64,000 nt of DNA, from NCBI RefSeq assembly GCF_000165425.1, contig NW_001799640.1:277489-341488 (forward strand), given 5' to 3'. Positions 3,713-52,800 of this stretch are shown here, one piece after another (the stretch's first letter is position 1; the number at the start of each line of letters is the position of its first letter). Source of the stretch: Paramecium tetraurelia (Eukaryota; Ciliophora; Oligohymenophorea; Peniculida; Parameciidae). The notes under the pieces were generated by a model. The model was not told the DNA's origin, searched no databases, and saw nothing but the letters and a program-made list of their open reading frames with translations. A program made the position numbers and the translations under genes.

Positions 3713-3921
3713 ATTTGTCACTCCATTTTTATTTTAAGGTGTCCTCTAAACAAGGCTTTTGGATCATATTATAATATCAAATTTATTGTATATATATAAT
3801 ACACAAAAATAATCATTAGATAAATTTGCTAATAAATTATTCAAAATCTGCAGTCCCAAATGGAACATTATTAATGATAAATGATTTTTTGGATTTCTGT
3901 TAAAAAAACAATGGTACTCAA

Positions 3922-4828: not shown

Positions 4829-4860
4829 TTTACAATGTATTGTTATATTTTATATATATC

Positions 4861-6247: not shown

Positions 6248-6315
6248 GAATTAAAGATTTAATTTAATTTTACTTTTTTAAACATCACACTCATAATATT
6301 TTTATTAAATTACAA

Positions 6316-22475: not shown

Positions 22476-22539
22476 TCAGTAGTTAAATCGTAAATAATAT
22501 AATGGATATTTATAAATCATTAATTATCAATATAATAAT

Positions 22540-24114: not shown

Positions 24115-24136
24115 CATTATTGAATTGTAAATATGT

Positions 24137-24836
<700 letters not shown>

Positions 24837-24846
24837 TTTTATAATA

Positions 24847-26515: not shown

Positions 26516-26555
26516 ATTTGATTAAATATTATTTTTAAATAAATTTGTTATTAAA

Positions 26556-27386: not shown

Positions 27387-27417
27387 TTATTCAATGAAAT
27401 AAAATATATAAATATAT

Positions 27418-30400
27418 TCAAATAAATTTTATTGTTTCTAATTTATTTTAATTTCTGATTCTTTAATTTTTTATTTAACCCTTAAATTATCGAGCTATTT
27501 CCCTAATATTATTATGTTTCAAATAATATTCAAAGTTCTTTACCTTGTCAAATCCTTCGAAAATCTCCAAATATTATCCCATCTTCTTACCCTGTTCCTC
27601 TTCCAAATTCTTATTCAGATATAGATACTCCATCGAATTGTCATTCACTTTTATAAATGGCGTAACTACTATCTTTGTTTGTCTTCTCTATTAATCTCTC
27701 ATTTGCTCACTTGTTTTCTTATCTGAATCCTGATTACTCTTATTACTCAACACCGTGTTTTGATGATTCTGCTATCTCGTATTCAATTACATTTATTGAA
27801 CATTTGAGACATTGTTTTAACGTATACTTTGTCTCTCAGCTCTTTAAATCTTACTGATAACATCTAAAATTCTATCTCTCTATTTACTTAAACAAATAAA
27901 CATACAATCTCCTCATCCTTCAAAGCGTCAGTACATGCTTGGAATGTCAATTTACGTTTTCCATATTATTTTGATAACCTGGAGTTTCGATCTAAGGCCA
28001 ATAGTGTACTGTTAAGCACTTCCTTATCGACTTCTTGTTAATTTTCTATAATCTCATCATTGGCACTATCAGCAAAACTTGCTCCTTGTTATTGATATCA
28101 ATTGTTGACTACCTCTGCTATCAAATAGACAACGCTGGTCATCTATTTCTTGGGAGATCATCTGAGTTTTGCACATGTATAAATAGATACTATTCCTTAT
28201 GTCTAGAGATTCCTTTCTTGTGGAGATCTTTCTCTCTATCTTCCTTCTGTATTTCACTCTGTCAGATGGAATGTTCCTTCTATAATTGAGCAACACTTTG
28301 GCTCTATTGGGATATCCACACACCATTCTAAGATTAGACTATGTACTTACGGACACTCTTTGATGATATGAGTTGTCTTGTTGCAAGCTCGGCATGTAAC
28401 ATCAATCAATTCCTGTTTGTTCATAAATGAGATTTATTGCACTAACTCACAATACTTAAACTAGTAATAATACAATCGAGATTTCTACATAATCATTTTG
28501 ATGTTGTTGGAGAATATCTAAAAATTGAGATCTGTCTATTTTTAAGACATAAGAGAACTGATTTGATTTGCATGACATCTAGTAGGCTTAAGATTGAAAG
28601 AATTCCAATACACCAAAAGGAATGCCTTCCTACCTTACTGTCTCAAGGACTTTAACAGTTTACTATTTGTTGTTCATAGTAATGTAAAAGGAAAGACTCC
28701 CATTAGATAGAATATAGAGATACTCACTTGGATCATATTGCTGCCTTTTCAAATATATATTTTACCTCATATATTGTAGATTCAGGAACGAACTTCTCTT
28801 CCACCATGGTTTTGGAGAGAGAAATCAAGAACTATTCACTGAAATTCTGAGTGAGGAAATTTATCTTCGATATCAATTTCATATTTGTATCAATCTTCAT
28901 TTCCTCTGCCAATTGTCTCGGAATCAAATCACTAAATTTGTACACTTCCCTATCATTATCCTCCATCTGATCACTCCATAAATACTCAAAGTATTTCCTA
29001 ATCTTCTCAGCTAAGTGTTTGTTGATTCCCTTAATGCGAATAAATTTCTTTAAATTATTCATATCAGTCCTCACTTAAAAACTTCTCCTATTCCACTCTG
29101 CATATATCGTGTTTATATTCCCTATTGAATATCCAAATACTCCTACTGCTGACAATGCCATTCCCACAGCAAATACTCTCTCCCTCAAGTTCTATGGAGT
29201 GATATCGCCGTATCCTATTGTCGTCATTGTTATTATGCTCCAATAAAATGAATGCAAATATTAGTTAAACCAATATTCATCTTCTATATTCTGTACTTTA
29301 ATCCAAGAATTCCCACTTGGATCTCCTGTCGATCCTACTAAAAACCAAAGACAAGCTGAAAAATGAGCAGCTGCCAATATCGTGTAAACCAATTTAATTA
29401 AATCGAAGATAACTATCTAAATTGCTGTTAATTCTAATCTGTCGAATAACGTTCTTGAGAACTTTTTAATTTGAAACACCTTTAATATAATCACCAAATC
29501 CAAGTATTCTAAATCAAATCTTAAACTTACAAAATATGGGATTATCACAAAGATATCAAACAAAAATGCTAATTGTATATTGTCAATTTTACATGATCGA
29601 AAATAGTTCTTAGCTATCAAATATCTATTCTCTATGACTGCTCCCTTATTGTAATAGCATGTGTTGAATTTCAATAGTATCTCAAGCATAAATGAGTATG
29701 ATGGTAAGACATCAAAAATGATCTATCTTGCTTATTGAAGATCATCATTCGTACTATCGTCAAATTTAAAAGCTATTTTGGCTGATACATAAAGCACGTT
29801 AATATTCAAAATGGTCAATATGTATATATTCCACCAAATAGATGCCAGTGATTCCGGTCTCAAAATCAGTCTCTAATTCCCAAAATAGATTTTTAAGAGT
29901 TTAGTTTTTCTGATTGGGACTAAAATCCTCTGGCTCAAAAAATATATCAATTTCTGGAATCCTGTTGGTTTCTAGAAAATAAACAAATTTATCACTATTT
30001 TTACTTCGTACTTAAAGAAGTTGCGCAGCTGATAGAATTCAAAATCTGCTGAAACGTCCCCTATTATGTCAAATACATTCTTCTTAATTAATTTAAAGCT
30101 TGTTGCGAAATTTGATTTTGTTATAAAACTAATAAATCGCAATGTAATCATAAGTATCTCCAAAGCCTTGGTTTTCCAAATTTTATTACTGAAACCAAAG
30201 TTTTCGATAGAGTTGTGACTTTCTGATTAGATTGGGCTGTCCTCCTTATAATTAAGCATGGGTTTATTAGTTTGAAAACTAACTGCTCTCATTCTTTATT
30301 ATCGTGCACTCGTTGTGCTCAATCTAAGTAAGCAATTGGAAATACTTATTTTTTGATTCAATGATTATGCTCGCAAGATCAACTTGTCTATGTGTCCTTG

Positions 30401-30557
30401 AGTTCTAATTCTCATACAAATTTATTTCTTGGTCTTATTCAGTCACTTTTAATAGAGATCGAACAGAATGACCATAATTCTCAAGGTCCAATTTATCCTC
30501 TTGTAATGATAAAATTCAATGATTACAAATTTCAGTATTGAGATGATTAATTTTCAT
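27418..30557 (-). CDS. Cyclic-nucleotide-gated-type K+ channel with C-terminal zinc knuckle
   Basis: About 986 residues; introns placed at 27880-27905, 28085-28112, 28328-28350, 28461-28488, 28741-28765, 30324-30345 and 30500-30526, with a further possible in-frame one near 29970-30005. A cytosolic N-terminus is followed by six transmembrane segments and a K+-selective pore (TMTTIGYGDITPQN), the C-linker (FIRIKGINKHLAEKIRKYF, DLIPRQLAEEM) and a cyclic-nucleotide-binding domain (LYILSNGSLSFYI) whose phosphate cassette (FGVLEFF) lacks the usual Arg. After it comes a CCHC-like motif (CRACNKTTHIIKECP) and a long polar tail. It belongs to the ciliate CNG/EAG-like channel expansion that shapes membrane potential and swimming. 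Convergent with the SF-assemblin gene, 31 bp apart. Confidence 0.9.
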
Positions 30558-30591
30558 TAAAAAAGTTATTAAATTAATACTATGCAATAGG

Positions 30592-30918
30592 AATTATTTT
30601 CTCTTCATAAAAAGCAACCTCTAAGAGAAATCAAATAAATTTAAATTGATTGATGAGATTGGCTCCAACTAATTAGAGTAGGAATTGATTATTCATGAAT
30701 TAACACTCTAAGTGCATTTTAAGCACTGACTTTAATCCAAACACCAAGGATTCATTATTCTCAAAAGATAGAAATTTTGAAGTAACAATATCGTAATTAA
30801 TGTCACTATTTTGTTATTAAAGAACTTATATCATAGTTTCTCTTATTTGGGTGATGAATACCAATATAATAATTTGAGCATAAATAAAAAGGAGTTTATG
30901 CTTGAATTCTTCAATTGA
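30592..30918 (+). CDS. Possible short gene, structure unresolved
   Basis: Several short frames look coding (FSLHKKQPLREIKQ near the start; YHSFSYLGDEYQYNNLS then INKKEFMLEFFN before TGA 30916-30918), but I could not join them with convincing introns. It could be a small unknown gene divergent from the K+ channel (34 bp apart), or a remnant. No domain recognised. Confidence 0.25.
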
Positions 30919-31691
30919 GCATAATATTAAATGAAAATATATCAATTAATATATTTATAGATATAATCAGTTATTAATATGGTATTTAATATAAGTTTAA
31001 AGTAATTATTAAGTATTTTAATTAAAATTATTATTACATATGTTCCTTAGATAGTAATCAATAGATTGAAAAATTTTGTTCTTCATTCCTTATGGTAATT
31101 TAGATTATGAACTCAAAAAGGGAGATCGTTTAGACTAAGAGTTAAGAACAATAATGAATTTATTATTAAGGTAATAATGGTTATGGGATAATTGGCTGAG
31201 TAAAATTATATTTTTTTATTTATCAATTAATAACCTAGTTATGGCTTGTGTTTTTAACTTGGAAACTCTACAAAAATCTATTGTGGAATGAATGAGGTTT
31301 GGATGATTTCGTTATTTTCAATTATAAAACATGTCATATAAATTTGACAATTTTGCATATGATAATATTATATAGTAAAGAATATGGAAATACTAATATT
31401 TGAAATAAAACAAAAAAGGTCAGAAAACATTAATTAATACATATCAAACATTCATTAACTAATATATTAACTTATAAGTAAAATAAAAGTTTGTGTGTGT
31501 GTATTAGAGAGAAGGGAATTAAATTAGGATCCAAATTTAATCATTAGTAAGAACAAAATACTAAGGAAGTATAATTTACATTTAATTAAATGGGTGTAAC
31601 AGACATATGTTTGTGGGAAAGTTGTGGAGTCTGAGGAGGTGGTTTAGGTGGTAGTCTAGAATAGTTGAGTTTATAATATTTATATATAATT
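30919..31691. other. AT-rich intergenic stretch
   Basis: No coding frame stands out on either strand. A short TG run (gtgtgtgtgt) occurs at about 31493-31502. It presumably carries the promoter of the downstream kinase gene. Confidence 0.45.
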
Positions 31692-34470
31692 ATGATTGCT
31701 GAGGTCCAGAGTAATGAAGATCTATAAGTAATGTGTAGAATCTGCGAAAAAAAAGTAAGAGTGTACAATTACAAGTGTAGACGGATGCTACATTGATTGA
31801 GAATCATTTGGTTAATTGTTAACAAATCTTTGAAGCTAGAAAGCAATTGCATTAATTGGATGTGTAAATTTAGAAGTTGGCCGAGTTGGCACAAAACTGC
31901 TTTCGCACATTAAATACAAAATACCAAATTCACAAGTCCAAACAGGCTAGGTACACAAACAACGAGAATCGAGGGATGCGTAACAGTGCTCCGTTGAAAT
32001 TGAATCAACCAGAAGATTGTGCAAGTGAGGATACGGGTTCAAGAACAAACAAGGTGAGTGTAAACGTGTATAATGGTAGTGTACTGTGAAGTCGAGGTTT
32101 GCGAATTTGGGAACAAGCTTGGCAGATGATGAGCCCGATGAACCTGAGTAAAAATCTGTGATTTAGGTTGTGGAAGAGAATATTACGGGGGAGGATCTGG
32201 AACGAATAATGAAACAACAGATCAAGTTGTCAAAGAAAATAGAGTAGTAGAAACAAGGAGTTAAGTTTGCGCATTCTCCTTCTCCGGAAATCAAATAAAT
32301 AAGTTCTCCATTATCGAATGGAATGGGGAGTCCCTTCTCTCTTGAGTACAACGTTGTGTTTATAAATTAGTGATAATACAGAAATTTTAAAAGATTTGAG
32401 ATTACAGTTAAACTCTCTCTCCATAATTACTAAATATACTGAAGAAACTCTTAAAACCCATCATGGCACTCAGTCAATTTAATTTGATCTAAAAATACAG
32501 GTGGAATTGTTCAACATCAAACATACACTCCAAAAAGAAGTACAAGATCTAATAAAAATGACTTTGAAGCTAATTGAAGTAAAATTGAAAAATATTTTAT
32601 AATTTTAGGAAAAGGTTTAATGTACATAAAAAATTTCGAGATTACAAAAACTCATATCCGAAGAAGAAAAGCTTGAAAACCTCACTTCTCCACTCCGTAT
32701 GAAGATCTCCAAAGTTGAAACTGGAAATCGCAGAACTTCTTTGGGTAATTCTTTACAAGAACATTTTGAAATGTTCAAAAATAGTTCGACTGGATCCAAA
32801 TGGTTGAATAAGTAAAATATCATATCCAATTTTGAAAACACTCACTAAGTGTAATCCAAGACGTTTACTGAAGGTGTAGGAAAAGATTGTATTTTCTCAA
32901 AGTGCTTGAGTGAATCTGAGGATGGTGGAGCAAGCAGCAGTGAATCAGAATCAGAAGAAGTATCAGATAAGGAAGACAAAAAGAATATCACTAAGAAATC
33001 ACTAGAGGAATCTTTTGAAATGGAAGATTTTGTTTAACAATCCAAAAGCAATGTAATTTCATTTAAAGATTTAAATTAAAATTTAATTAACATGGTTGAT
33101 AAGTGTGATTTCGATAATGAGAAGGAATAGAAAGTTAAGGGGTATTACAGTGATGGAGATTTCAAAACTACCAAATTAGTCAAGAACAAACAATTGTAAA
33201 CCATAATATTATTAAATATGTTAGATTGAATGTAACTCTTCAGGATTTTGAATTTATCCAGGTTTTGGGTGTTGGAGCATTTGGGGCAGTGTGGTTGGTC
33301 TCTAAGAAGAAGACTAAGGATTATTATGCAATGAAAGTGATAGATTGTAGAAATAAGAATATGAATGAAATTTAGAATTTGAGAGCTGAAAAAAACGTCT
33401 TTGAAATTTTAGAGGGTGATTTTGTAGTCAAAGCCTATTATTCCTTTATTTAAGACAATTGTCTGTTGTTCCTATTAGAATATATGATGGGGGGGGATTT
33501 TAGCCAAGTGCTGTTTCAATATGGACGTATTTCTGAATCAGTGGCTAAATTTTATCTGGCTGAATTGCTATTGGCGATTGAATCATTACACAAGAAAGGT
33601 ATAATTCATAGAGATTTGAAACCACAAAATATCCTATTAGATGCACAGGGTCATCTAAAATTAGCCGATTTTGGTTTGTCTGAAATTGCCTTAGTGTAGA
33701 AGATAAGGGAAGGCAAGGATGGAATTAATTGTTCAATTGACCCTGAAGCCTTACCAATGAACGTTTCGAAGAGAAACATCAAAACAAAATGCAATATTGA
33801 ATTTCATTTACAAAAGACTACTAGCAAGACCAGTATTTAGGAGCGAACGCAATCAGGGAAAAGATAGAATAGAATAATTGGAACTCCCGATTACATTCCC
33901 CCTGAGGTTATTTGTGGATTGTCCATATCTAACTTTTCAATAGATTGGTGGGCATTTGGAGTGATAGCCTATGAATTTTTAGTAGGAATTCCACCATTTA
34001 ATGATTCTAGCATTCCGAAAGTGTTCGAGAATATAATTAATAGATTTATAGAATGGCCAGAGATAGGCAGTGGAGAAGACATGATGAGTTAGGATGCTTA
34101 CGAATTAATCAATTCATTATTGGAACCATAATACCATATGAGACTCGGAGAGAAGGGTGCTGATGAAGTGAAATCTCATAAATTCTTCGATGGGATTGAT
34201 TGGAATAACATCAGAAATTAGGAGGCTCCCATGATTCCAATAAGAGATTTGGATCAATTAGAGGAGGAGGAGAGCAATATCACGAAGAAGAAGAATGAGG
34301 AGGTGAAAATGAAGGACAGATTGCAATCAGTGCAAGTCTCCCATGATGGAAATCTAGATGACGTGGCTAACCTAACCAGAGTTGATCTCCTGGCCAAGAT
34401 TAGTTAGAAGGATGCTGAAAATGTAATGAAAAAAAGATCAATTCGGAAGACTATTTAACAATTTCTATGA
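31692..34470 (+). CDS. Rim15/Greatwall-like AGC protein kinase with N-terminal zinc finger
   Basis: 878 residues; introns at 31755-31780, 32060-32091, 32346-32370, 32579-32608 (in-frame, likely) and 33196-33224. Removing the first intron gives MCRICEKKTDATLIENHLVNC, a C2HC finger like that of plant IREH/Rim15 kinases. A coiled, serine-rich middle part leads to the kinase at about 500-830: GVGAFGAVWLV, AMKVIDC, IHRDLKPQNILLD, DFGLSE, then an insert of about 65 residues before GTPDYIPPEV, the split catalytic domain typical of Greatwall/Rim15/MAST. Relatives act through endosulfine-type inhibitors of PP2A; the target here is unknown. The stop lies 13 nt before the next gene's ATG. Confidence 0.9.
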
Positions 34471-34483
34471 TTAATATATACTC

Positions 34484-37400
34484 ATGTTAAAGTACTTTCA
34501 TGATTTATCCGATGAATATGCCAAAAGTACATACAACCCTCAAACTATGAGTGAGTGCATCTAGGGTGTGTATGAGTATCTGAAGTAAGAGAAGAACGAA
34601 GATCAATTCGTCATCAACAATGGAGGAATAAAACTCATCCATCAATCTTAATGGCATTTCGAAAAGTAATACTCAATCTGTTTAACATTCAATCCTCAAG
34701 GAGATGGAACGCTCTTCTAATTTTCATCCTCTCATGTCGATGGCAAAAGAATAATCGCCAATGGAGTTCATTGTTATATAATGGCTGGGGTAGTATTCTA
34801 TAAGAATGTGTACCAGAGATTCACTCTAGAGAAGGTTATTGTGGAGGATTACTCTTCCAATAATAAGTTGGGGGACGTCATCATGGATGGGTGGAACGAA
34901 CTAATTATTTCACATGAATGTGGAAAACTATATTCCAGACCAAAGTTTATATATTCAATTAATCAGAAAAAAAACACTTTGCAGATTGAGTATCCCAAAA
35001 TCAGGAATCAGAATCTTGAGCTCCTCTACTTCTAGCACATTAAGTGCAAAGTCAAGGAGATCTCCGTTTATAGTGAAGTCGTGGATCTCCATCTGAAATC
35101 CCCCTTTTATTCAAATCTACCCATTGTACGATCCTCACCAAACCTAAAGAGTCAAAGACCGAATCCAGAATGTAGTTTATGAACTCTAAGGAAACACCAA
35201 AATGACATCCTCTTTGCAGAAGTATGATTTTGTAGAATATGGTGGTATTAAAATATTAATTCCACTTTTCAATCTAATTCAATATTATGATCACTCTAAA
35301 ATTGATGATTTGTTCGAAATCCTACTCTACACTCTTTTGCAGGATAGTCAAATCAACAAAAATCAAATTACTGATATGAAACTATTCCAATAGATAGCCT
35401 AAATTATCAAGGTAGACATCCCTAATCTCAGTTAAATTTTATAAATCAAACAGTAAGTATAGGATTAAGACATATTGAATCAGCTCTTGCTTTTAATTAT
35501 TGATGTCAATTTCATTAAACGAGTCACCGATTAATAGCAATACTGCATCTTGTTACAATAATTCTACATCAATGATCATCAGCAATACTTAAAAGTCACC
35601 TCAATCTAGTATCTGGCTCAATTATTGGTGAGTGTCAATTAGAAAAGCCAAATCCAAGATCAAATTCTATAAATTATGATCTACTCCTGTCAATATAACT
35701 TTAATACTTTGAAAGAACAATTCAAACTCTTCTTAAAAGTAGCTGAAGCATCAACAATTGAACTTAAAATTAAAGCCGTTCAAAGTGCAACTAGATTGGT
35801 TTCTGACTTATTCAGAGATGACTAAGACAACTTTATTGTTTTTAGAGATCATAACATTCAAAATAAGATCCTAAATGACATCCTTCTTCTCTTGCAAACT
35901 GATAGTATGGATTGCTTGGTGGCAACTATCACATTATTGGGACAAATGCTTTATGGAACTAATGATCTCTTAAGTTAAGGGATGATCTCCTACATTTCTA
36001 AGGCAATTTGTGTAACCAATAACTTTGATAACTTGTTGAATGTGTTGACCTAATTACTGAAGATTAATTGCTTAAGTGTTGAAATTCTTTAGCACTTATA
36101 CTCTTAAACCAAGTAATAAAATATCCTCGAATACTATCTTAATTATGTGAAGAAGATTACGATTGAATAATAACAACTCATACTCTAACAATATTCAATA
36201 TGGTTTTTGGATCAATTGAAGTTTGAATCAAATGAGAGACTCTTAGAGATTTTTGTTTATCTTCTAAAATAGAATCCTCGATTCATGTTTTAAACTTTGA
36301 TTCATTTTCAAATTAGAAAGGATGTGTCAGCACTCATCACTGTAGTCACTGAAGCAATAGAATAGTTCAATGAGGAACAAATATATCAAGTCTAACAGAT
36401 AATGTTCCAGATATATTTCTCAGTTCAATCATTCAAAAACTTTGAAGTGTTCTTAACTAAACTGATGAGACATGTAATCTCTTTAGAAAATGAGTAAGAA
36501 CTATCCAAAATGGTTGAACAAAAAGAACTGCCCTTTGCCATTCAAAAGATTATCAACTTAAGTTTTCCTCTTGATAAGTTGAAAGAATGGTTACTCTATT
36601 TTACCAAACTCTTTTAATAGACTTAATCTCAACGCACAGAAGCGAGTTAAAGCTTTATGATCCAAATAATTGATTTACTCAAAGCAATTCAATCATAGAG
36701 TTAGGACGAATAGGTAAAGGAGAGTATTGAATAATTCCTTACTCAAAATGAGCTAATTCTTCAATCACTCGCAGAACAATAGGTGCAAGTATTTGATTCG
36801 ATTAAATTTTAAGAAGATTTTTAAGTTATCCAAGAACAGTTGTTGATTAAATGGACTCAGGAACAGCAATAGATCAAGATGAATCAATCAGAAGAATTAT
36901 CTAAATTAACAGATGAAATCAATCAGGCTGCAGCATAGATGGAAGTGTCTGTTTACAAATTGATGAATAAAACCAGAAAAATCAGAGAAAGGTGGTGTAA
37001 GCTTTGGCACAATTTACGAATTACTGTATATAGACCATAGGAATGCAAATTTCAAGTGGATGAATAAATTGATCATGATTACCAATTCCATGAGAATCCT
37101 TATTACATCAATAAAATTGAGAAATACATCAATAAATGTTACTCTCGTCCAATATTAAAAATAAAGTTTAAAAAGAATCCTGAATTTGAGAATGATGCTT
37201 AAGTGCCTCTGGAAAAGAAGTAGCAGTACAAATGCTTTTGGCTAAAGAGTTTGTACTTAAAACAAGGAGGTGTCACAATAGGAGAGGACAAGATAACATT
37301 CTCCTATTACTCGTACTCTTAATAAGCGAATCACATTACCTTGTTGCCCCACACGATACCAAATCACCAAGCCATTCAAGAAATCGTGGAAGAGGAATCA

Positions 37401-39359
37401 GATTAGATGGCTGCATGAAAGAATATATATCAGGAATAGAAATGCCATTGAAATCATCTTCAAGGATGGAGAATCATTGTACTTGATATTTTAGGACCAG
37501 GGATTAAAGGAACAGATAATTGAGAAGTTGAAAATACAACCGAAACAATGCGATTTCAATAAAGCTAGTAATTTCAAGTATTTAATGTATTTGAATTTTC
37601 TATCTTGTCGATCCTACATTGATTTAACCAGATATCCAGTGTTTCCATGGGTTTTGAAGGGAAATGCTTCAGATTTTGATGACAATGATATTGCATCAAT
37701 ACAGAATGAGATTAATTACAGAGACCTTTCTCTTCCCATAGGAGCTTGTGGAACTGAGCAGAGATTAGACTAATTTATTAAGAGATTTGAAAATGAATAG
37801 TTTTATTATGGAACACATTATTCTAGTTAAGCATTGGTGTCTTAGTACTTGATCAGATTGAGTCCATTTACAGAAGCAGCCATATCTATACAAGATGGTA
37901 AGTTTGATATTCCAGATCGACTGTTTAGATCAATAATGAAATCATGGATCGATTGCAATAATGAGATGGCTGATGTAAGAGAGTTAACACCTGAGTTTTT
38001 TTATTTGCCTGAGGCCTTCTTAAATGTCAATGGGTATAATTTCGGTAAGTTGTAAAGCAGTCAAATAGTAAACAATGTACTATTACCATTCTACTCTAAC
38101 AAGAATGCTTTTTATTTTGTTGCTCAAAATATGATAGCATTGGAGAGTGAGTATGCAATAAAGTTAAATGAATGGATTGATTTGATTTGGGGATACAAAC
38201 AACAAGGAAGTGCTGCCGTAGATTCATTCAACGTATTCTATCCATTGACTTACTCAAACTTCGATGAAAATAGCATAGAAATCAATGAATTAGCGATGGA
38301 AACGCAAATAGCCCACTTTGGATAAACACCAGAGTAGATCTTCTATAAACCACATGCTCAAAAGAACTAGATAGTAGATAAGACTTAGTGGCAGACAGTA
38401 AAGAATAAAAAGTCATAAAGCAAATTGATCTACTTGATTTGTAATAAGAGCAAAGTGGTGAGCGTCCAAGAGGACTTTACATTAATTTAATGGTAGATTG
38501 TTAAAAATTAGTATCAGTTTCAATAGGAGAAATAGGTGTAATTGCCAAAGATTAATTTTGATGCAATGATCAAATATGTACAATCACCCATTTTAGTATT
38601 GATTGAATAGTCAATAGTATTGTTTGGTGGAAATAACAATGGAACACTTACATACTATAGTTTAGATAATTTGAAGTTGTAGGGAGTGATTGAATTGGAA
38701 AGTGAGATTATCAACAATCATTGTACGGTCACAGTTCTAGCAGCTAACAAGCAACAGAATATCGTGATACTGGGAACTAATAAGGGTTTTGTGTACTATT
38801 ACAATAAATTGCTGTAAGGTAAGTAGGACATAAAATAGGAGGAGTTGCTTAAGGGTAAGTACGTCATCTATGACACAACTTCGCAAATAAATTCAATAGA
38901 AATTTCAGAATAGCTAACCATCTTTGGTGTTGGGACTTAGGATGGAACCATATTCTTATATAATTTGTACAATCGCACTCTCTATAGATTCATCAATCAT
39001 CCGAAGGGGTTGCCTATCTTCTACTTAAAATTGAGTTATTCTCCCTTACCTTGTGTGTTGTTTAGTTCCCATGATGAGCGGATTGTGGCTTATTCAATCA
39101 ATGGGTTCTTGTTGCAATCGCTGCAAATCAAGGGAAACATCGAATATATGGAAATCAGGAAATCTGCCATAAATACTTTGGTATGGAATTAATTATAATT
39201 TTGTAGATTGTCATCACAGACATAAACGTTTTTGAGTATCGACTGCCCTTTTTGGATAGACTGTCGGTGGTGCCTGCCCAAATTTGCACAAGGTTTATTT
39301 AGGCAACAAAACAAATTTCAATTTTTGGTTGTAAATCTGGTGATCTGCGTATAATTTGA
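34484..39359 (+). CDS. BEACH-domain protein 1 (PH-BEACH-WD40)
   Basis: A large protein of about 1,600 residues; introns are only partly resolved (clear ones at 35457-35483 and 39181-39206, one uncertain near 35129-35171). Order of parts: an N-terminal concanavalin A-like/LamG-type domain (IIANGVHCYIMAGVVFY, GDVIMDGWNELI), a long alpha-helical armadillo-like stretch, a PH-like segment, then the BEACH domain (FKYLMYLNFLSCRSYIDLTRYPVFPWVL, DKFDIPDRLF-like GKFDIPDRLFRS, DVRELTPEFFYLPEAFLN, EWIDLIWGYKQQGSAA) and C-terminal WD40 blades. BEACH proteins (LYST, neurobeachin) act in membrane fusion/fission and trafficking. The C-terminus IFGCKSGDLRII is the last WD repeat. A paralogous gene of the same class lies inverted at 46894-53814. 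Confidence 0.9.
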
Positions 39360-39398
39360 GGATTTGTTTATGTAATATTTCATATACAAAATTATATA

Positions 39399-42300
39399 AT
39401 GTTGCATTCTCCATTGATTGAAGATTCGGAGGAAAAATAAAATGTATTGGTGAAACACAGCAAAACGAAAACCATATGGATAATAGTGCGGTACATAATA
39501 TCTGACATCACCAAGAGACCAAGATCATTTAAGATCGGATTGTTTACGATCTATTTGGTAGTAACCTTCTTGGCTTTGCTCGAAAGTGCAGTTCAACTCT
39601 CTCCCTTAATATTTATTCAATTGGCTGAGACTCAATCGGGAGACAGCGACTTACTATTCACTCCCATGTCTTCATTTAACAAATCGATCACTTACGAATC
39701 CTCTTCCACATTTATCAACACCACCGAAATTAACGAGTATTTCAATGAGACTGATGGCATCTTCGGATCATCGCCAAGATGGTTATTGACAGGTAATCTC
39801 ATAAACAATAATACTCATGTGGAGAAGATTAATCAGAAATTAAGAACTTTTGTCATCATACTCAATCAAACCCAAGAAATCAGCATAGGTTTGGGTCGCA
39901 GATCGACTCAAAATTACTTAACTGCAAATCAAGTCCAGGTCTCAGCTTCCACTCTCAGAGGATTGAATGCCAGTGTTGGTGATGTATTGTAGGTGAATAT
40001 AGATGTGGATGAATTGATCTCATTGTTAGATGGAAACACAAAAGGAGGAAGTGAAGACTTTTTTTATTAATTAATCGATTCGACTATTAATAAACCTTTA
40101 AGAAGAATATTCGGAGATGATTTTCAAAATAAGATTATTTAAAGAGAAGAAATCTAACAAGGAGCAGAAGAAGTTGTGGCTCTAGCTGATTTGTTGGAAT
40201 CCAACTAAGAGTTGAAAAATTTATCCAAAGAATACATCGAAGAATATATTAACGGTCAGGATTTTCCTTAGGATGAAAAGAAATTATTGTTAGATATTAT
40301 TGATATCGAATACTAAAGAAATCTAAGTGAAGATGCCAGAACCTTAGAAAGATTTGCTTATAAATTAAACGAAAGTGTTACCGTTTATGAAATTGAAATG
40401 GCCATATCCAGTCTGGTAGCATAAAGTGCTAATTTCACTTTTGACGTCATTGTCACCGAAAAGATCGAATCACCCAGAGGAAAATGGCAAGATGGATTCA
40501 ATGCTTTGTTGATGGATTAACAAAATGCAACCAATATCTTGGTGGAAGGACTCCTGACCAAATTTGAAGAAGTGGTCATTGACAAAAGATTGAATGATGA
40601 TACCACAATTGGAGCTGTTGCAGAATTGATACCAATAGATTTTGTCAAATCAGTTGTTTGGAATGCCTCTCAAAGGATCTATTTGCCAGATTACTCATTA
40701 GCTTAGAATCTTATATTAAAAAATAGATTGCAAGTTTACTAAGACAAAAATACCATCAAATAAGGTATCATAGATGTCACCAATTAATTTTTTACAAAAA
40801 CTGGGTTTGATTACCCTGTTTCAGCATCTTCAACCTTAGCAACTGCTGTTTCAAATTACTTTATATTGAAAAATTTCATTGATAATCTCATAGCAGCTGC
40901 CACAATGATTTTATTAATGCTATCTATTCTATTGATTTATTCATTGATGATAGGTGATGTAGATGAGAAGACTTATGAATTTGGTATGTTGAGAGCCTTA
41001 GGGTTCAGAAAATCATGGTTAATTGTATTATTACTATTCTAAGCATTGACATTTGCAAGTTAGTAATCTATATTCTATATTATTAGTACCAGGCTTATTA
41101 TTAGCCTTAATTACTTGTTACATTCTTAACTCTTTGGTATCTATGTTAATATTTGAGACTACTGACATGGTTTCCAATTATGTGATTGCAGATCCAGCGT
41201 TATATCTAGCTGTGAGTTTAGGAATATTCATACCTATCATTAGCAATATATTTCCTATCTAGAGAGCTTTATCGAAGACATTGCGAGACTCTTTAGATTT
41301 GTATCATAGAACAATTCAAGAAGTGATGGTTAATGTAGTGAAACTTGAGAAAATGGGTATATCTCTTACTTAGACTTTTTGTTCTTTGCTTTTAGTTGCC
41401 ATTGGTTTTGTTAGTTATTACTTAATACCGATGGCATTCATTTTTAATAATGTGACCTTGGCCTTGAATATTATCAACGTCATCTTTATTATCATGATCA
41501 TAGGATTCATGATATTAGTCAACTTGCTTTAAGGGCCATTAGAAAGAGCCATTTTGTATTGTATTTTATGGATTTGTAAATTCGATAGAAATCTTAAATA
41601 GATAATTTTTAAGAATTTATCAGGTCATGCAAGCAGAAATTGGAAAACTACATTCATGTATTCACTTGCCCTGTCATTCATTCTATTTGCAGGAGCATCC
41701 CTTACGCTGGATTCCAAAGTAATTGGCGATGCATTGCAATCAGCTTTAGGAGGAGATGTGACTGTTATGGTAATACCCACTGATAAAATTGGTTTGGATG
41801 AATTCGAAATACGTAAGCATTTAGAGAGTGAAAGGATTAGAGATAACACATTAATTCAAGATTATTCATTTAATGCCATTTTGTTAACTCATTTTCCATT
41901 TTAAGGAGGAATTTAATGGTTTACAACAATGGCAACCTTTCCATGGGCAAAAATACGATTAGGAGGAGTGGAACCAAACTACTTAGAAACGATTATGCAG
42001 GAATATTATTTGCCTGATGATTACGATGATTAAGTTTCATATCCAAAATTAAAGAGTGGAAAGAAAGATGGTGTATATGGTCTTTATGATAGGAGTGGCA
42101 ATCTGGATATTGAGAGCTAGGAGGATGCTAAGAAGGTTATTACTTAAATGACCATACGGGATAGATACTACTAGGATCTCAATTTATCAAGACCAAATGT
42201 TAGAATAGAAGAAGATAGAGAAATCAATATAATTATTCCGTAAGGCTATAAATATGAAATTTCTATTGATGTTAACACTCCATCCTTAATTTGGTGGGGA

Positions 42301-43089
42301 AGATACTTTCGAATTAATGTTAGACATACAGCCTCAAAGGTGCCTGGTTTTGATTTCTCATCCTACAGATAAGTAACAAAGTTTGGATAAGGAATCATTT
42401 CTATGCCTGACTAATTATATATGGTCAATAGATATTTAGGAGGAGATATCCGCAATATATCTAGTATTTCAAATCCATCGATAAGAGAATATTTGAGTAA
42501 TTTGCCAAAGGGATTGACATATGGATTGCCAAAAACAAGCTTAAGAGTTAAGTTTGCAAGATAGACTAGTAAGACTGAGAGGGTGGATTTCTGTAATCGA
42601 TTAAGAAACTATTTTAGAAATGATTAAACATTGCTATTTGATGTGAAAACTCTAAAGGAGGAAGCAGAGAATGCCTTCTTTTATATTCAAATCCTGAACA
42701 TAGTTGTTGCTGTGATTGCCCTTACGTTATCATTCTTTTTAATTCTAATTTCATTTGTTGGAAATGTCAAAGACAATTCATGGGAATTCGGAGTTCTTCG
42801 AGCTATTGGATTAAATAAAAACCAACTTACTAGAATCTACATTTATGAGGCCATATCCTTAATCACCGCATCTGGAATACTTGGTACTTTCATTGGAATC
42901 TCTTTGGCCATTTTACTGACCCTCCAAATTCTCATGTTCATAGAATTACCTTTTGTGTTGATGTTCCCAACAGCCACATTTTTAATTACTTGTCTTGGAG
43001 GATTCGTCACAGCCGTAGTCGCCAGTTACTTAGCAGTCTTGGATATGAAGGACAAAAGCATTTCAGTCATTTTAAAAGGTCTATTGTGA
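39399..43089 (+). CDS. FtsX-like permease protein 1
   Basis: 1,220 residues with a single 28-nt intron (41059-41086). It has the layout of a duplicated MacB/FtsX permease: a membrane helix after a KRPRSFKIGLFTIYL start, a large extracytoplasmic domain with N-glycosylation sites, a membrane block (ATMILLMLSILLIYSLMIG, FGMLRALGFRKSWLIVLLL, and further helices), a second extracytoplasmic domain and a final three-helix block (FGVLRAIGLNKNQLTRIYIYEA). The repeated FG-x-LRA-x-G motif is the FtsX coupling helix. No ATPase domain is present, so it would act alone or with a separate ABC protein. Eukaryotic FtsX-like proteins are mostly protist expansions without known substrate. It is tandem with a paralog, 49 bp apart. 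Confidence 0.88.
40908..41121 (+). repeat. Near-identical block shared with 44643-44856 (copy 1)
   Basis: 214 bp, identical to copy 2 except for one C/T difference (in ctatctattctattg versus ctatctattttattg). It spans the end of one exon, the 28-nt intron and the start of the next exon of permease 1. Sequence on both sides diverges at once to protein-level similarity only. Confidence 0.97.
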
Positions 43090-43138
43090 TAATTTTTTAA
43101 TATTTCTAACAAAATAATGATAAATATTAATACTTTGA

Positions 43139-46100
43139 ATGGCTTAACCCAATGAAGATCAACCTTCTTTAGCAGAGTTGCAATCAACCCAACCTCAAAG
43201 ACTGATTCGACTCTTTTTTAAATACATCTTGTCCGATATTGCCAAGAGGCCACGTTCTTTTAAGATTGGATTACTCTCAACTTATATTGTTATTGCATTT
43301 CTGGGATTACTGTAATGTTTAAAAAGTCTAAGTCCTTTTTTATTTCTTCAATTGGCTGAAACCTCTGTTGGGGACACAGATCTACAATTTTTACCCAAAA
43401 CTCTGGCTAGCAAAAATGATTTCAGGCTCATCAACATAACAGAGTTACGCCAAGTAATCTATTCATTTTATTTAGTACACTTCTTAAATCGACGAATTTC
43501 TAGATGTTTCTCCGAGATGGCTGTTTATGTGCGATATCTACAATCCCAAAGCATCCCTTAATTTGACTTCTTTTTTTATGATTCTAGATTCACAACTTGA
43601 AAATAGCATAGGCCTTGGTCGAAGATTAGATACTGACATCATCACTTCTAATTAAATTTATATATCCAACACACTCTAAAAGGGACTGGGAGTTCAAATT
43701 GGAGACACTATTCAAATCAAATTTAGTGTCCTTCAATTTCTTAAACACTTTGGATTCAACAACACAGAAGGTGAATCTAAGAATCATCTAAGAGAATCTT
43801 TCAAAAGGTTTTTAAATGACCTATTGCAAATTTCTGATGATGATATATTACATAGGAAATTTGATGTTGCAACTATGTTGAAATATGTAGAAGAATATAA
43901 ATATTTTGTTAATGATTTAGAAGCATCTGAATGGAAGAAAAATCAGACTAAAAAAAGTTTAATTTAATCAATTTATAGTTAAAACATAACAACTCCTTAG
44001 AAGAAATTGGCAAAACAAATGGTCGACTACATATTTACTAGAAATTTGACTAAGGATGCCAGAAGCATGTATCGATTTGTTTTTCGACTTTCAAAGTTTA
44101 CTAAGGAAATCACCATTTCATAGATAGAAGATGGTTTCTTTGATATAGCAATTGAAATAGCAGAATTTGAATTAAATTTTTCAGTTTATCAAAGTGTCGA
44201 ATCCCCAAAAGGAAAATGGACAGAAGCTCTAGGAATGATGGTATTCATGGATTATAAAGATGCAACCAGTTTATTTTTAGATGCCATCCTCGATAGATTT
44301 GATGCTGTGATTAAATAAAAGAGAAAGTATGACTAAGGTATGGCAGGAGCGGTATCATAATTAATTCCTGTTAAAGAGACTAGAAATTCAGTGAGGGACA
44401 AGCTAAAACATTTTTAACTCTAGGAGTATTCTCTGATGGCCAATGTGGTATTCTAGAATAAATATCCAAAATATGAGACTCCAGAAAATGCAAAAGCTGC
44501 AGTCATTTCATCAACAAATCAATTTTACTCAATTGCTGGGTATGATTATCCTGTTTAAATTATGGCACCATTAGGTTTTATCGTTGAACTATACCATTTA
44601 ATAAAACACTTCATTGATACTCTGATATAGGTGGCAACTATAATTTTATTAATGCTATCTATTTTATTGATTTATTCATTGATGATAGGTGATGTAGATG
44701 AGAAGACTTATGAATTTGGTATGTTGAGAGCCTTAGGGTTCAGAAAATCATGGTTAATTGTATTATTACTATTCTAAGCATTGACATTTGCAAGTTAGTA
44801 ATCTATATTCTATATTATTAGTACCAGGCTTATTATTAGCCTTAATTACTTGTTACTTATTAAATGCGTTAGTTTCAATGTATATATTTGATATGTCTCT
44901 TTTGATTTCCTCATATAGTATTCCTCTCTATGCATTGATTGTTCAAATAAGCATAGGAATCTGTATGCCTATTGTTAGCAATATCCTACCAATTAAACAG
45001 GCTTTATCGACAACTCTTAGAGATTCTTTAAATTTATTACATAAGGTTGTCAGCAACATTGTTGTAACTGTTATGAGACTTGAAAAGATAGGGATAAGTT
45101 TAAATTAAACAATTTATTCAATAATGTTAATATCTATAGGATTTATAAGTTATTACGTTATTCCTATGAATATTATATATTAAAATGTTGGACTTGCTAT
45201 TTTTGTATTAAATATTGTATTTGTAACGATGTTAATAGGTGTAACAATGATAATCAATTTAGTTCAAAAAATAGTTGAAAAATATCTTCTCTATTTGATA
45301 TTATGTCTGAAATCATCCGATTAAAATTTGAAACCCGTAATCTTAAATAATTTAAAAAGTCATGAGAATAGAAATGCGAAAACAACCCTTATGTACTCGC
45401 TTGGTTTGTCTTTGATTATATTCACAGGATCTTCATTTGCAATTATGAGCTAGATGATGTAAAATTACATCAAAGTCAGCACAGCTGCAGATATTCGTAT
45501 TTTTGATGCCTCCAAAAAGTTTGGCTTAGATGAGTATGGATTAAGGCAACATCTTGAATGGGAATAAAAGAATGACTCTACTTTGATCAAAGATTATACA
45601 TTTAGTGCTTTACCTTTGAATGAATATCCTGGTATCTAAAATCACTTTTCAATCTCTCCATTATCTCGTTTTCCGAGAAACCTTATCATATTGCAACCAG
45701 TCGAGAAAAACCTACTGAATTCAATCACATTAGAATATTATCAACCAACTGAATATGATACTGAATCAAGTGACGTTAAATATTTGGACAATGGTGTAAG
45801 AGATGGAATATATGATTTATATAATAGGGACTCTAATTATGATATGAAATAACAGAAAGATATCTCTGGAATAATTTCCAATTCCAAATATTATTAAATA
45901 TTTGAACCAAAATAAAAAACCATAAAAATAGATAGGGAAATAAATATAATAATTCCAGAAGGGTATAGGAATGCAGGTAGTATAAGTGTTAATACACCTG
46001 CATTACTTACGATTAAAAATAAGGAGTACATGATAGAGAAGAGATTGAAAATTAGGCATATGGCAACTAAGATACCAAATTTTGATTTTAGTGCTTATAC

Positions 46101-46842
46101 TACAGTTGTATTTTTTGGACAAGGATTGATTACTATGTAGGATGCAGAATTATTATTAAAAGAGATTCTGAACAATAGAGCGGTAAGAAAGAGTAGAAAA
46201 TATAGGAAACTTAAGGAATTTATAGAGCAATTACCAAAGAATTTGAGTTTTGGCTTGCCTAAAGATTAGTTGTTTATAAAGTTTAACAGGGATACAACTA
46301 GGGAAGAAAGATTGGATTTTAGTAATCGAATGAGAAATTATTTCAAAAATGATTAAATTTATTTGATAGATTCTCAAGAGCTTATGAGAACTTTTGATGA
46401 AGTGTTCACATATTTTGAGATATTTAATGCCGTGGTTGCAGCCATTGCTTTGATTTTATCCTTTTTCTTACTTTTAATATCATTTATTAGTAATGTAAGA
46501 AATAATTGCTGGGAAATTGGTATCCTAAGAGCAATAGGTTTACAAGAAGTAAGATAATCATGATTACATTAGGTATAAATTCAAAAGGTGTTTATCTATG
46601 AATCTATATCTTTAATAGTATCTTCAGGTTTAATAGGTTCTTTAGTTGGATTCATAACAGCGTCTACTTTTGCAATGTAAATAGCCACATTTTCGGAAAG
46701 TTAGTTCAGATTAGCATTTCCTTTGTATACTTTTCTTTTTACTTTCCTTGGTGGAATTTTGATTGCTGTGGCTTCGAGTTATTTGGCTGTTAGACAATTA
46801 AAGAATAAAGAAATTGCCTTCATCTTAAAAAATTAGATTTGA
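43139..46842 (+). CDS. FtsX-like permease protein 2
   Basis: 1,209 residues, introns at 43454-43475, 44794-44821 and 46549-46572. Same architecture as its upstream paralog: KRPRSFKIGLLSTYIVIAF first helix, LFLQLAETSVGDTDL, the central membrane block with FGMLRALGFRKSW, a second extracytoplasmic part, and a last block with EIGILRAIGLQE. Overall the two proteins are clearly diverged, and only the second intron is shared in position. No ATP-binding domain. A transport or lipid-handling role at a membrane is inferred from the family only. Its 3' end faces the 3' end of BEACH protein 2. Confidence 0.88.
44643..44856 (+). repeat. Near-identical block shared with 40908-41121 (copy 2)
   Basis: The partner of copy 1, 213 of 214 bases identical including the intron at 44794-44821. 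It lies within permease 2. Confidence 0.97.
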
Positions 46843-46893
46843 TAATATTTTGTAGAATAATAACGATTTATGATATTGATATACATTTAAATC

Positions 46894-49800
46894 TCAATCC
46901 TATTGAAAGATTCTCTAATCAACTGCCAATCCAAATTCTCCATCAGATGTTCCAAATGCTAAGATTGTTCTGTCTGGTGACAAAGCAAACGAACTTATAT
47001 CATTCATAGATTGTGGACAATCAGTCAATTAGACTTCATTTCTTTTTTGTAGAAAGGGAGTTGACAGCATCAAGATTTTCTTTTCCATACATAATGGTAA
47101 AACCTATGATATTTAAATAAAACTTACAATAATATCAGTTAGTTTTGAGTCTTTTACAACTTTGAGATGTCCTTAATTAACAACATATTATTTTAATTCA
47201 AGATGGGCCAAGAATTACCCATTGATGCTATATGAATAAATATTTTTGTTTTCATAAAAGGCTATTCCATACAGAGGTGTACAATAGCTACAAACTTTAC
47301 TAATGGGTAATCCTTTAGGATGTCTATAACTTCTTAGATATTTGCCTGACCATTAATTATACATGTGAATCCAACTATCACTAGAACATGTTAATACAAC
47401 TTTCAAATCATTACAAATAAATATATCTGTAATTTATTAATCATGATGATGATGTTTACTAACAGGAATGTATGAATTATTAGACACTTTGTATATTATT
47501 AGAGTTCCATCCTTACTACCAGTTGCTAATATTCTCATTTTATAATCAAATCTCATTACAGTTATCGTATACTCTTATTCAAATTTCTATTCAGAAATTA
47601 TACCGTTATTATAAATTAGCATTCTCCCATCCCAAATACCACCAATCAATACTTGTTTTCCTCTGATTAACACAGGTAATTCATCATAATTACAAGTCCA
47701 ATCAAAGAGATATTGATTTTCATCCAAAAATTTACCAAAATTGATTGATTGATCCTTCTAATTATTAATATCAAGCTTATTGTCTTTTAAATCTAATTTA
47801 ACTGTAGCACATTCACCACTACGACGAATCATCCACACTTTGCTATCACTCAAAAACTGTATTCTAATAATCGATTTGTTTCTCGAAAAGTTTTATGATT
47901 GAGTTTGGGCATTATTTTGTTTTTACCTAAAAATTCTCTTTTCTATCTTTTCATCTACAATTCTATATACAATTTTTAATTTTCCTCTAGAAATATGGGG
48001 TCTGTCCCAAATTTAGCTTGGACATTAACCAAAATGGATTGCCTATGATTCTAAGGAAATCTTTTGTTTTTCATTCTTGATTGAGTCCCAATCTATCGAA
48101 TTTTCGTATGTCAAATAATAGAATGTATTCAAAGCCTTGACTGCCTCCTCTCCTTTTTATTTATATCCAAAAATTAAGTCAATCCAATTGCAAATATGTT
48201 ATGAGACATAATCACTTTCCAATTCCATTCTGTGAGCACAGATGAACAAATAGGGATTCTATTGAGTCCAACTAGGTAAGTCTACATTGTTTACTCTTTG
48301 TCCAGTTTGCTATAACCCATAGTCATACTTAGATAAATTAAGAAACATCTCAGGCAAGTAAAAGAATTCAGGTATCAATTCTCTGACATCACTTAATTCT
48401 TCAACTGCATTCCTATAGGTGTCAATGAATGAAAAAAAGAGCCGATCCGCTAAATCGAATTTCCCTGATTGCAACTCTTTGGCACCATCAGAGAAAGGTT
48501 TCAATCTTATCAGATAATGGAAAATTATTGCTGGACTTGAATAATGACTCCCAAAGTGAAATTACGGCACCTTATTAAAATGATCTATCATATTGTATCT
48601 CTATTCAAACACTTCAATCCTGTCTTTAGTACCCAAAGCCCCCATGCTTTTAGTCAGATCACGATATTTGTGCAATTGCTCGCCGTCATTCATTATCCAT
48701 GGAAATACGGGATATTAAGTTAAATCCTTATTACTTCTTCCAGCAATTTTATTGACTTTCATTAAGTATTCGAAGGTTGAGATCTTATAATTATACCACT
48801 TGTTCATTGCCTTGCTTTCCAATAAGACACTAATAGGATCCAACTTCCCAGATAAAATCCTAGGTTTAATATTGATGGTTCGTTATTTCTTCAATGAGAT
48901 CAGTTTTTCAATCACTTTTTGATGATCTCCATTTGAAAAATTGAATACGAGCGTACTGCCTTCCAATAAGGTCAACTCTAAAGAAGTCCATCTACCTATA
49001 TACCTTCGAAATTATATATCATAGATTTAATCCAAATCCCACTATTTGACTAATTGGGAATCTTCAGGAACTCTAAATTTAATTAGACTTTGATGAGTCT
49101 CTTTTTGAGTGATTGATTCAAAATAGAAGATCAAATGAGTGTCACTTATACGCAAAGAACCTATTCTAACTGTTAAGGTCTTAATCCATTAGACTCTGTG
49201 AAGAATCACCTCATCTTCTTCATGTTATTATGAATAAAAGGGGATGATGGTATCAAATATGATTTCATGTATTTTCTTTCTTTGTCTCTCTGGTTGTTTC
49301 TTATCGTAATCAGCCAAATTCATTATTCTTGTGCTTTATTGTTGGGATTGCATAACGGTATCAATTTAAGGGTAGTCGTATAACTTTGGTTTGAGTAATG
49401 GTCTTGACTTTTACTTGGTTTCGTATTTCCACATTTTCCATGTAAAGCTAATATAAATTCTGTCTTTTACATCTAATTTTATTTAATGTTTTCATAATGC
49501 ATATCAATCGAATCGAATGGTTTATCTATTTGGGCCTTGAAATCTGGATGAGCCCACCATTGATTAAAGACCCGGACTCGATTAAATGACTTTTTAAACA
49601 TGTATCTTGCCTGTCTCATACAGATTTGTTCCGAGTCTATTCTCTGTATCTTTTAATCATAAGAATAAGTCGTTGATGAAGATATCCTAAAGGCAATATA
49701 CTGTAATCAATTACATCTATGAGAATAAGACTTCCTCGATTCCCTGGCGTTATTATTGCAATTTGTCCTATAATGTTTTCTTCTTCTAAGCAAAAATCCT

Positions 49801-52800
49801 ATAAGATTCTTCAAAGTCACATTTTGTTTTAGAATGATACTCCTCATCTATGAAAAATGATTCTTGTATTTTTTTCAATAAAGTTTGATTATCTACAAAC
49901 ACTTACTTTGCTGATATCATTTTCTCCATGATCAATTTGTCATTTACTTTCAGTGATTTTGTCTCAATTACGTCAAATATGTGAGAGCTGTCCTTTTTAA
50001 TTAAATCATTGAGCATTTTGATTAAAAATAGTTTGTGCTGTTTGTACCCTTCAAAAATGAGAGCTTGGAAGGACTCATTCTTATTTAAAATTTGAGTGAA
50101 ACTATCAACATAAACGATTAGAAATTTAAATGAATAAAATAAGCAATTTCTCACGATTTATAATAATTCCTGTTTGATTTCTTCATCATAATTAATCTCT
50201 TTAATTTTATCCTCCATTTAATACAGAAATATGAAATGTGATCCGATAATCAAATAAACTACTTTATCCTGCGTTTCCTCAATCTCTTTGTCTCTTAGTG
50301 TTTCAGATGAAATAATCAAAGTCCTGACCAATTTATCAAGTGTATTCAATATCACTTGCAATTACTTGATGTTTTCACTACTCTGCACATTATAAGCAAA
50401 ATACTCAGCATTCAATTACAAAAATAGTTGACAAACTTAAACAAAAATGGGACACTAATGTTATTCCATCCCGATCTCAAATGAGAACATCATGGCAGCA
50501 AAAGACTTTTGTAATTCTGTTGGGTTCTTCTACTCCAAGATGCCTAAGATTCCTTTCTAAACAATATGATAGTCTTCTAAGGAACCAATTATTTGTGGGG
50601 AGAATTTGCCACAAAATTGATTCACTATTTCACAGATATTCACAATTAGGATATGATCAACCCATTGAATAATTCCGAATTGTTATTTCCATTCTAAAGA
50701 TGTAATTAATAAAATATTTACTCTTAGGCATTTCCTACTATGAGATTGTTAACCTAAAGGCAATAGATTAGAATTTATGGAATAAATAGTAATGTTCATT
50801 TTCCATAGTCCTTGGATCTGCAGTTACCAATCTGAATGTTTCAAAAATAACAGAATATAGGTTGACCCAAAACACTGAAAACAAGTCCAATTTATAACAG
50901 TCACTAGTAAATAAATCAATAGAATTTACGATAAATTAGATAGTAATTGCTTATATATCAGTCTCATCAATAATTAGGTAGCTTACTAATTGATCTTTTC
51001 TTTAAAGAATTCCTCCAATACTCTGCAATAACTTTGCAATTAAGCCACCCTTTGAAATCCATTTTTTTCATTTTAAATAGCAACTTTGATAACATTGCAA
51101 TATAATTTCAATCCACTATCCCAAATCCAGAACTCAAATTGTGTCAATTCTCTATTGTTATATTAATATTAGATTTCTAGGAGGGTTTCTAGGATCCACC
51201 AATGAAACTCTTCATTATTTAATAGAAAAAGGGCACTGGCCTGATTCCATTTAATTAGCATACATAAATCTTACATGATGCGACCTTTGACTGAATCCAC
51301 ACAATATTGGAAATAGCTGATCAACAAAGATAATCCACCATCCGATTTAATAACGAAATTCTCATCTAGAATAAGTGTGTCTGAATTGGTTTTGCCAACT
51401 CTTGTTCTCAACATCCATTCCATAATTGCAACATAGAGAGGTTCATAATCTATGATTCTTCTATTTGGCTATACAATCTTTTTCGTTTGTGTGACTGGTT
51501 ATTTTTTTTTTTCCTCAATTGAACTTTATTGTTCTTCTTGTTAATGAAAGACTAAAGCTTAATTTACTAATGGTTTTCTAGGTTAAACATCCTCATCTTC
51601 ATCATCTGAGTAGGTCTCCACTGCAGCACTATTTCCTAGAGTGTGAGCAATCCAACTAGCAATTTCTTTTTCGTTTGAAGATTAATTAATCCGAATGCTC
51701 TCGGCTATCAATTTGATACAACTAGTTTTCACATCTGGACAGGAACAAGTTGTTAGTAGATTCAATAACATTTGCATTACTTCCTCTTGGATGAGGATCT
51801 GAGATATGGGATTATTGCTCTTGGTCTCGTATTAAAATAATCCTTATAGCTTTTTGAGTAGTAATTAGTAAAAGCAAGGAGAGCATTTTAACGTGAAGAC
51901 TCTTGTAATATCTATGATATTCTCTTTCTCAATTTTGGATTGCGACTAAAATAGTTTATAATGCAGAATTGCATCAATGATGTCTAATAATGTAATAAAA
52001 TAATAATACTTAGATAGGAATCAATTAATTAAGAGTACGGTATTGTTGGCAAACTAAAATTGGTATACCCCATTTGATTAGCGTGTTCTTCGCAGCATAA
52101 TCTATTTTTTGGATCAATATCATATATCAGAGTTTCTAGTATCTTACTTATACCAAAAATGGATATACAAAATTCAGGATTATCATTGTAGATCACTCGT
52201 ATAAATTTTAGATAGTCCTCAATGATAGAAAAATCATCTAGTCTATAAATTTGGATTCTCCACAACAGACTGCATACGAATTGTTACTTTAATTTCACGT
52301 CCTGAATGGAGTTATATAATTGGGAGAGCAGTTCTATTGTTTAGCTGTTGATCATAGCGAGTCCGGAATCATTAAGTTTAAGGGCTATCAAACTTAAATA
52401 TTCTGTTCTGATTGCATCTGACTATGATTCTGGTCTTGATTTAAAAATTTAACAGAATAGAGCCAACAACTCATTCAACAATTAGTCGTAAGGCTACAGT
52501 CGTAAAAACAATAGTAGAGGAACAAAGTTTTCAATTCTACAAAATTATGCAAATTGCTGTTTTTGTGTTATTCTCAAGTAAGACCCACTATATGATTGTA
52601 AGGCTCCATCAAATTGATTGATTGGATCAGTTATAAAATTGGCTCTAGCTCTGAGTGGAGTATAACACAATAGTAATCTATTATTGCCATGAGATTTATG
52701 CAAATTTCTAAGGTGATCATTTGTTTAAATACCCAAGTTTTTGTCTCCGCAAGTTAAATCACTATATGCATAATAGTAGTTTATACTTTCCATCAAATCC

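Follow-up and report, generated by a model that had tools for sequence, protein, structure and literature searches.

The question raised by this locus is how two neighboring permease genes of Paramecium tetraurelia, whose proteins are identical at 517 of 1193 positions (43%) in a full alignment, come to carry an internal block of DNA that is almost free of differences. The window, by which we mean the whole stretch of DNA that was analyzed, is the final 64 kb of contig C221, and the genome that was searched comprises 69 Mb in 231 contigs. From the sequence comparisons described below, we conclude that the block is most probably (with a probability of roughly 0.94) a recent non-crossover (ectopic) gene conversion tract between old tandem paralogs.

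The reading frames of the two genes are open once TAA and TAG are read as glutamine (genetic code 6, with TGA as the stop codon). Exon 1 of gene 1 contains 15 TAA or TAG codons and exon 2 of gene 2 contains 16, with no TGA in either, and the introns across both genes are 22 to 28 nt long. The stop of gene 1 and the start of gene 2 are separated by 49 bases. The genes and the two copies of the block are the following.

39399..43089, plus strand, gene 1, intact FtsX-like permease (gene model; 1220 aa, 1 intron)
43139..46842, plus strand, gene 2, intact FtsX-like permease (gene model; 1209 aa, 3 introns)
43454-43475, 44794-44821, and 46549-46572, plus strand, introns of gene 2 (gene model)
40908..41121, plus strand, putative tract copy in gene 1, consisting of 151 nt of exon 1, a 28-nt intron, and 35 nt of exon 2 (residues 504-565)
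44643..44856, plus strand, putative tract copy in gene 2 (residues 495-556), matching the gene 1 copy at 213/214 bases

By domain match, both genes are FtsX-like permeases. The Pfam scan, with a reporting limit of E 0.01, covered four pieces, the two exons of gene 1 and exons 2 and 3 of gene 2 (without gene 2 exons 1 and 4), and the pieces for gene 1 exon 2 and gene 2 exon 3 started 13 bases inside the intron. The curated cutoff of FtsX PF02687 is 25.5 bits. In gene 1, exon 2 passes with 59.7 bits and exon 1 falls just under with 25.3 bits; in gene 2, exon 2 passes with 27.5 bits and the scanned exon 3 piece is below the cutoff with 20.8 bits. PF02687 was the sole family at E ≤0.01 in the four pieces. 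Exon 2 of gene 1 also gave weak matches in the PDB to YtrF, MacB, and LolE (E 0.0009 to 0.07). The proteins thus share with the FtsX-like permeases of ABC exporters the PF02687 domain and a weak sequence match, and their ABC-exporter likeness is one of sequence similarity to MacB, LolE, and YtrF only. Unlike those three, the permeases described here are eukaryotic, are 1209 to 1220 aa long, and show FtsX matches in two places. The block sits within the first FtsX domain, and its span, judged from known FtsX proteins, is presumably TM2, the coupling loop, and TM3. When collections of viral and prokaryote contigs, which are not expected to hold ciliates, were queried with an alignment of four exons, peptide-pattern matches were obtained in 164 and 33 stretches, respectively, and none of these was confirmed as a relative.

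A sequence-only reading of this DNA had proposed that a short internal block of the two genes was recently converted, and the positions and the near-identity that it gave were borne out. The bases at 40908-41121 and 44643-44856 are the same at 213 of 214 positions, the intron is identical at 28 of 28, and the longest identical run is 192 bases. The sole mismatch is block position 22, with C in copy 1 and T in copy 2, and because gene 1 and the two closest relatives described below all carry C there, the private T of gene 2 at 44664 is probably derived. The block edges proved to be as abrupt as had been claimed, since the first base outside differs on both sides, and of the 100 bases beyond each edge only 60 (left) and 52 (right) match. 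The flanks are diverged, as had also been said, but the statement that only the protein pattern is shared there was slightly too strong, as approximately 52 to 55% of the nucleotides still match. With gap columns excluded, aligned coding identity is 185/186 (99.5%) inside the block and 1774/3393 (52.3%) outside it, and it is 328/600 (54.7%) in the 300 nt to each side. Codons for the same residue are identical in 61 of 62 cases inside the block versus 210 of 455 outside. With the intron removed, the longest identical coding run of the two genes is 164 nt, compared with a maximum of 28 in 10,000 shuffles in which aligned columns were permuted within codon position; in the remaining paralogous alignments that were examined, exact runs extend to no more than 14 to 43 nt.

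A protein search of the same genome gave a family of six members: the two genes of the window, single genes on contigs C202 and C166, and distant members on C74 and C50. C166 carries the sister of gene 1, and C202 that of gene 2. Outside the block, quartet sites (gap columns excluded) favor this grouping with 283 sites, against 101 that join genes 1 and 2 and 94 that join gene 1 with C202, and the grouping has an ultrafast bootstrap of 100. The split between genes 1 and 2 is, on this sequence evidence, older than the partings of gene 1 from C166 and of gene 2 from C202. Inside the block, the picture is entirely different, with 16 quartet sites that join genes 1 and 2 and 0 for either alternative. 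The flanks, taken separately and with the old grouping first, give 109:51:41 on the left and 174:50:53 on the right. Since the old lineage signal is kept in both flanks, the flanks were not exchanged, as would be the case in a conversion without crossover.

The genomic surroundings of the tandem pair were compared with other segments of the genome. The closer partner segment of the window is on contig C24, where blastn matches window 36152-39395 to positions 1-3245 of the C24 stretch (L030) and window 46851-50048 to positions 3298-6501, at 82% and 85% identity on the two sides of the missing pair. The missing unit is given by the following coordinates.

39396..46850, no strand assigned, unit with both permease genes that is missing on C24 (blastn of the window against L030)

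In place of both permease genes, the C24 stretch has 52 bases (L030 3246-3297). These bases bear a weak resemblance to the sequences with which gene 1 begins and gene 2 ends: equally high scores were reached by 19 and 85 of 2000 shuffles, respectively, and the score for the beginning of gene 1 was equaled by 30 of 659 stretches along the window; it is only suggested that the 52 bases are a relic of a deletion of the permease pair. The partner of C202 is C196, and the fetched C196 stretch had no permease match better than E 0.13. The partner of C166 is C181, where C181:142551-143499 (L032) gave weak N- and C-terminal matches at 26 to 37% identity (best E 4.5e-5); the pieces contain in-frame TGA stops, and the middle, including the block, is unmatched. 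This locus is a probable decayed relic of the partner of the C166 permease gene. Positions 72-1585 and 1894-5642 of the C202 stretch match window 22521-24014 and 26529-30293, and a neighbor of the C166 permease gene matches window 26524-27387, so that the window, C202, and C166 segments are related, most likely through older genome duplications.

Several other observations were made in these surroundings. Window 22521-34444 holds neighbor genes common to C202 and C196 (L005, L006, and L031), which we take to be a cyclic-nucleotide-gated-like K+ channel and a protein kinase. In the fetched stretches, the position taken by the permease on C202 is occupied by the kinase on C196, as if the two duplicated segments had undergone reciprocal loss. 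On either side of the tandem pair stands a large gene (36967-39417 on the plus strand and 46894-49491 on the minus strand); these two genes are related, in inverted orientation, and presumably BEACH/WD-like, and they are 67% identical over 247 nt, with 47% protein identity in the best stretch. Farther away, 45-nt direct repeats at 8109-8153 and 8478-8522 lie 369 bases apart and are 73% identical.

The near-identity of the block could in principle be held by extreme purifying selection acting on the DNA or RNA sequence beyond the protein, and the block is indeed the most conserved DNA part of the family in the pairs compared. The relatives argue strongly against this. Over the 62 codons of the block, C202 and C166 show 29 and 25 synonymous codon differences from it, respectively, and 24 when compared with one another, so that silent sites of this segment change freely in the family; the block intron is different in C202, where it is 26 nt long, and is missing in C166. 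With 25 to 29 synonymous differences in the relatives, selection does not explain the identity, and we consider it very improbable. Nor do these single-copy genes of the same genome conserve the block equally, with 74 to 77% identity versus 99.5% between the two tandem copies. A recent tandem duplication, after which all but the block diverged fast, would fit with the direct adjacency of the two genes. It is contradicted by the quartet result outside the block, which assigns to genes 1 and 2 different closer relatives on other contigs, and the block flanks are both at ordinary family divergence; we give it almost no weight.

Just as hard to credit is the conversion of both genes by a third copy. 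Such a donor is formally possible, but none is seen: the search of the 69-Mb genome with the block DNA, in which the best candidates were scored, returned four matches, namely, the two copies and the genes on C202 and C166 (79 to 80% over 158 and 146 nt), and thus no third close copy. The fetched duplicated segments likewise gave best E values of 0.19 on C24 and 0.13 on C196, and on C181 the weak decayed pieces without the block. Somewhat less improbable, if still unlikely, is an assembly artefact in which one block copy was filled from the other in assembly or gap closing. The identical run is longer than a read of 150 nt, and Paramecium assemblies have been published that were built from 2 x 150 nt reads or with a gap closer (PMC10195154, PMC8354472). 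Yet copies that differed as the relatives do, by about 25% inside the block and about 45% just outside, would be expected to offer no long common k-mers to collapse; by the same reasoning, short-read assembly may blur a few differences but should not merge copies that are a quarter different. The copies also retain a one-base difference, each is set in its own diverged flanks, and the reading frames and the intron are intact at homologous positions in both genes. A recent conversion, as the sequence-only reading had it, is supported by the tree incongruence, by silent-site and intron identity where the relatives vary, and by the unexchanged flanks.

The preferred reading, a recent conversion between genes 1 and 2, can be given the following form. 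A break in one permease gene would have been repaired on the template of the neighbor 3.7 kb away; the template would have been used over the best-matching segment, with approximately 214 bp copied, intron included, and about one difference would have accumulated after conversion. Published Paramecium assemblies represent the somatic nucleus, and a somatic event in one of its many copies would not reach the assembly consensus. Because the tract is present in the assembled consensus, presumably a somatic one, it most likely arose in the germline. The mutation rate reported for P. aurelia is 1.94-2.44e-11 per site per division (PMC11334263). By hand arithmetic and with very wide error, one difference in 214 sites would put the age of the tract on the order of 1e8 cell divisions.

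The placement of the tract within the genes was also considered. It had been suggested that the block encodes the helix plus coupling motif region and that the conversion therefore also homogenizes a functional core. There is a simpler reading, in that the block is the most similar segment in unconverted relatives too: by DNA identity it ranks 3rd of 1104 windows in the unconverted pair C202-C166. In pairs that include a converted sequence, it ranks 1/1078 (gene 2-C166), 5/1112 (gene 1-C166), 2/1144 (gene 2-C202), and 12/1133 (gene 1-C202). Genes 1 and 2 would have been most alike at this core before the event, so that its placement needs no adaptive reason, and the recombination substrate, as the segment of highest homology, may explain where the tract lies. 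Placement as a sign of selection for a shared core was accordingly set aside, since substrate homology predicts the same place.

The direction of conversion bears on the history of the intron within the block, which has the following predicted positions.

41059..41086, plus strand, predicted block intron of gene 1, 28 nt, with GTTAGT at the 5' end and TTAG at the 3' end
44794..44821, plus strand, predicted block intron of gene 2, 28 nt, identical to that of gene 1 and with the same GTTAGT start

Excision of 41059-41086 brings gene 1 back into reading frame. The 26-nt intron of C202 is in the same place and has the same GTTAGT start, and C166, C74, and C50 are without an intron there. The canonical start of Paramecium introns is GTA (PMC11334263), from which the GTTAGT start departs, and C202 shares this unusual start. 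Since the intron is present in genes 1 and 2 and C202, and not in C166, C74, or C50, the conversion may have carried it into gene 1; the simplest reading of this distribution is that an intron of the gene 2/C202 line may have entered gene 1 with the tract. On the other hand, the 3'-end intron (46549-46572 in gene 2) is common to gene 2, C202, and C166 and is missing in gene 1 alone. This makes intron losses in the family probable, and C166 may likewise have lost the block intron.

The exon sites of the block point, mildly, the other way. To test the direction, block sites resembling C202 or C166 were counted, with a breakdown by codon position and with restriction to conserved parts or to same-residue codons. 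In the block exons, 23 sites are C166-like and 19 are C202-like. With gene 2 as the donor, a count of C202-like sites as low as 19 of 42 has a probability of 0.013; with gene 1 as the donor, a count at least this high has a probability of 0.42. The log likelihood ratio against gene 2 as donor, summed over codon positions, is -1.36 for all sites, -1.85 for conserved parts, and -0.42 for same-residue codons, so that the exon sites fit gene 1 as the donor somewhat better. The clues to direction therefore disagree, with the intron distribution favoring gene 2 and the exon sites mildly favoring gene 1. In a six-protein tree that includes the distant C74 and C50, the root is weakly placed, with a support of 62. 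That conversion from gene 2 to gene 1 put a spliceosomal GTTAGT intron into an intronless site of gene 1 is a tentative proposal, to which we assign somewhat below an even chance.

Gene conversion between paralogs is a known process, of which the tract described here is a further case. No earlier report of a tract between these two genes was found among the matches listed in searches, mostly of nonsubscription literature, on Paramecium and ciliate gene conversion, intron transfer, and FtsX. Conversion between genes from whole-genome duplication is described as common in Paramecium (McGrath 2014, cited in PMC10195154), where, by the account in PMC10195154, it is recognized from lowered synonymous divergence along paralogous segments. 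The present case belongs to the same class of process, with a duplicate pair that looks younger than its age, and it differs from the whole-genome-duplicate cases outlined there in that the tract is 214 bp long, lies in the interior of two tandem genes, and has diverged sequence on either side. For the Hsp70 genes of P. caudatum, two tracts, both very short at 18 and 53 bp, are given in PMC3606833, which its authors allowed might be artefacts; as that test found next to none, such tracts would seem not to be everywhere. For intron transfer between paralogs, the table in PMC3443670 gives three events, in Mycosphaerella, Aspergillus, and Chironomus. Like the transfers tabulated there, the tract here lies between paralogs and holds a spliceosomal intron that is absent from the sister of the possible recipient; unlike them, gene 1 is a candidate recipient, and the intron may be ancestral in it.

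The tract has defined edges, a defined background of homology, and a young age, and it lies between tandem genes of old divergence. This suggests that conversion can still act on genes that are about half diverged if a short conserved core gives it sufficient matching sequence. Should the intron have traveled with it, the tract would add to the few intron transfers reported, of which three are in the table of PMC3443670. Transfer from gene 2 to gene 1, if true, would be a recent and readable intron gain between paralogs that are 43% identical, in which both exon flanks of the tract are preserved around the transferred intron.
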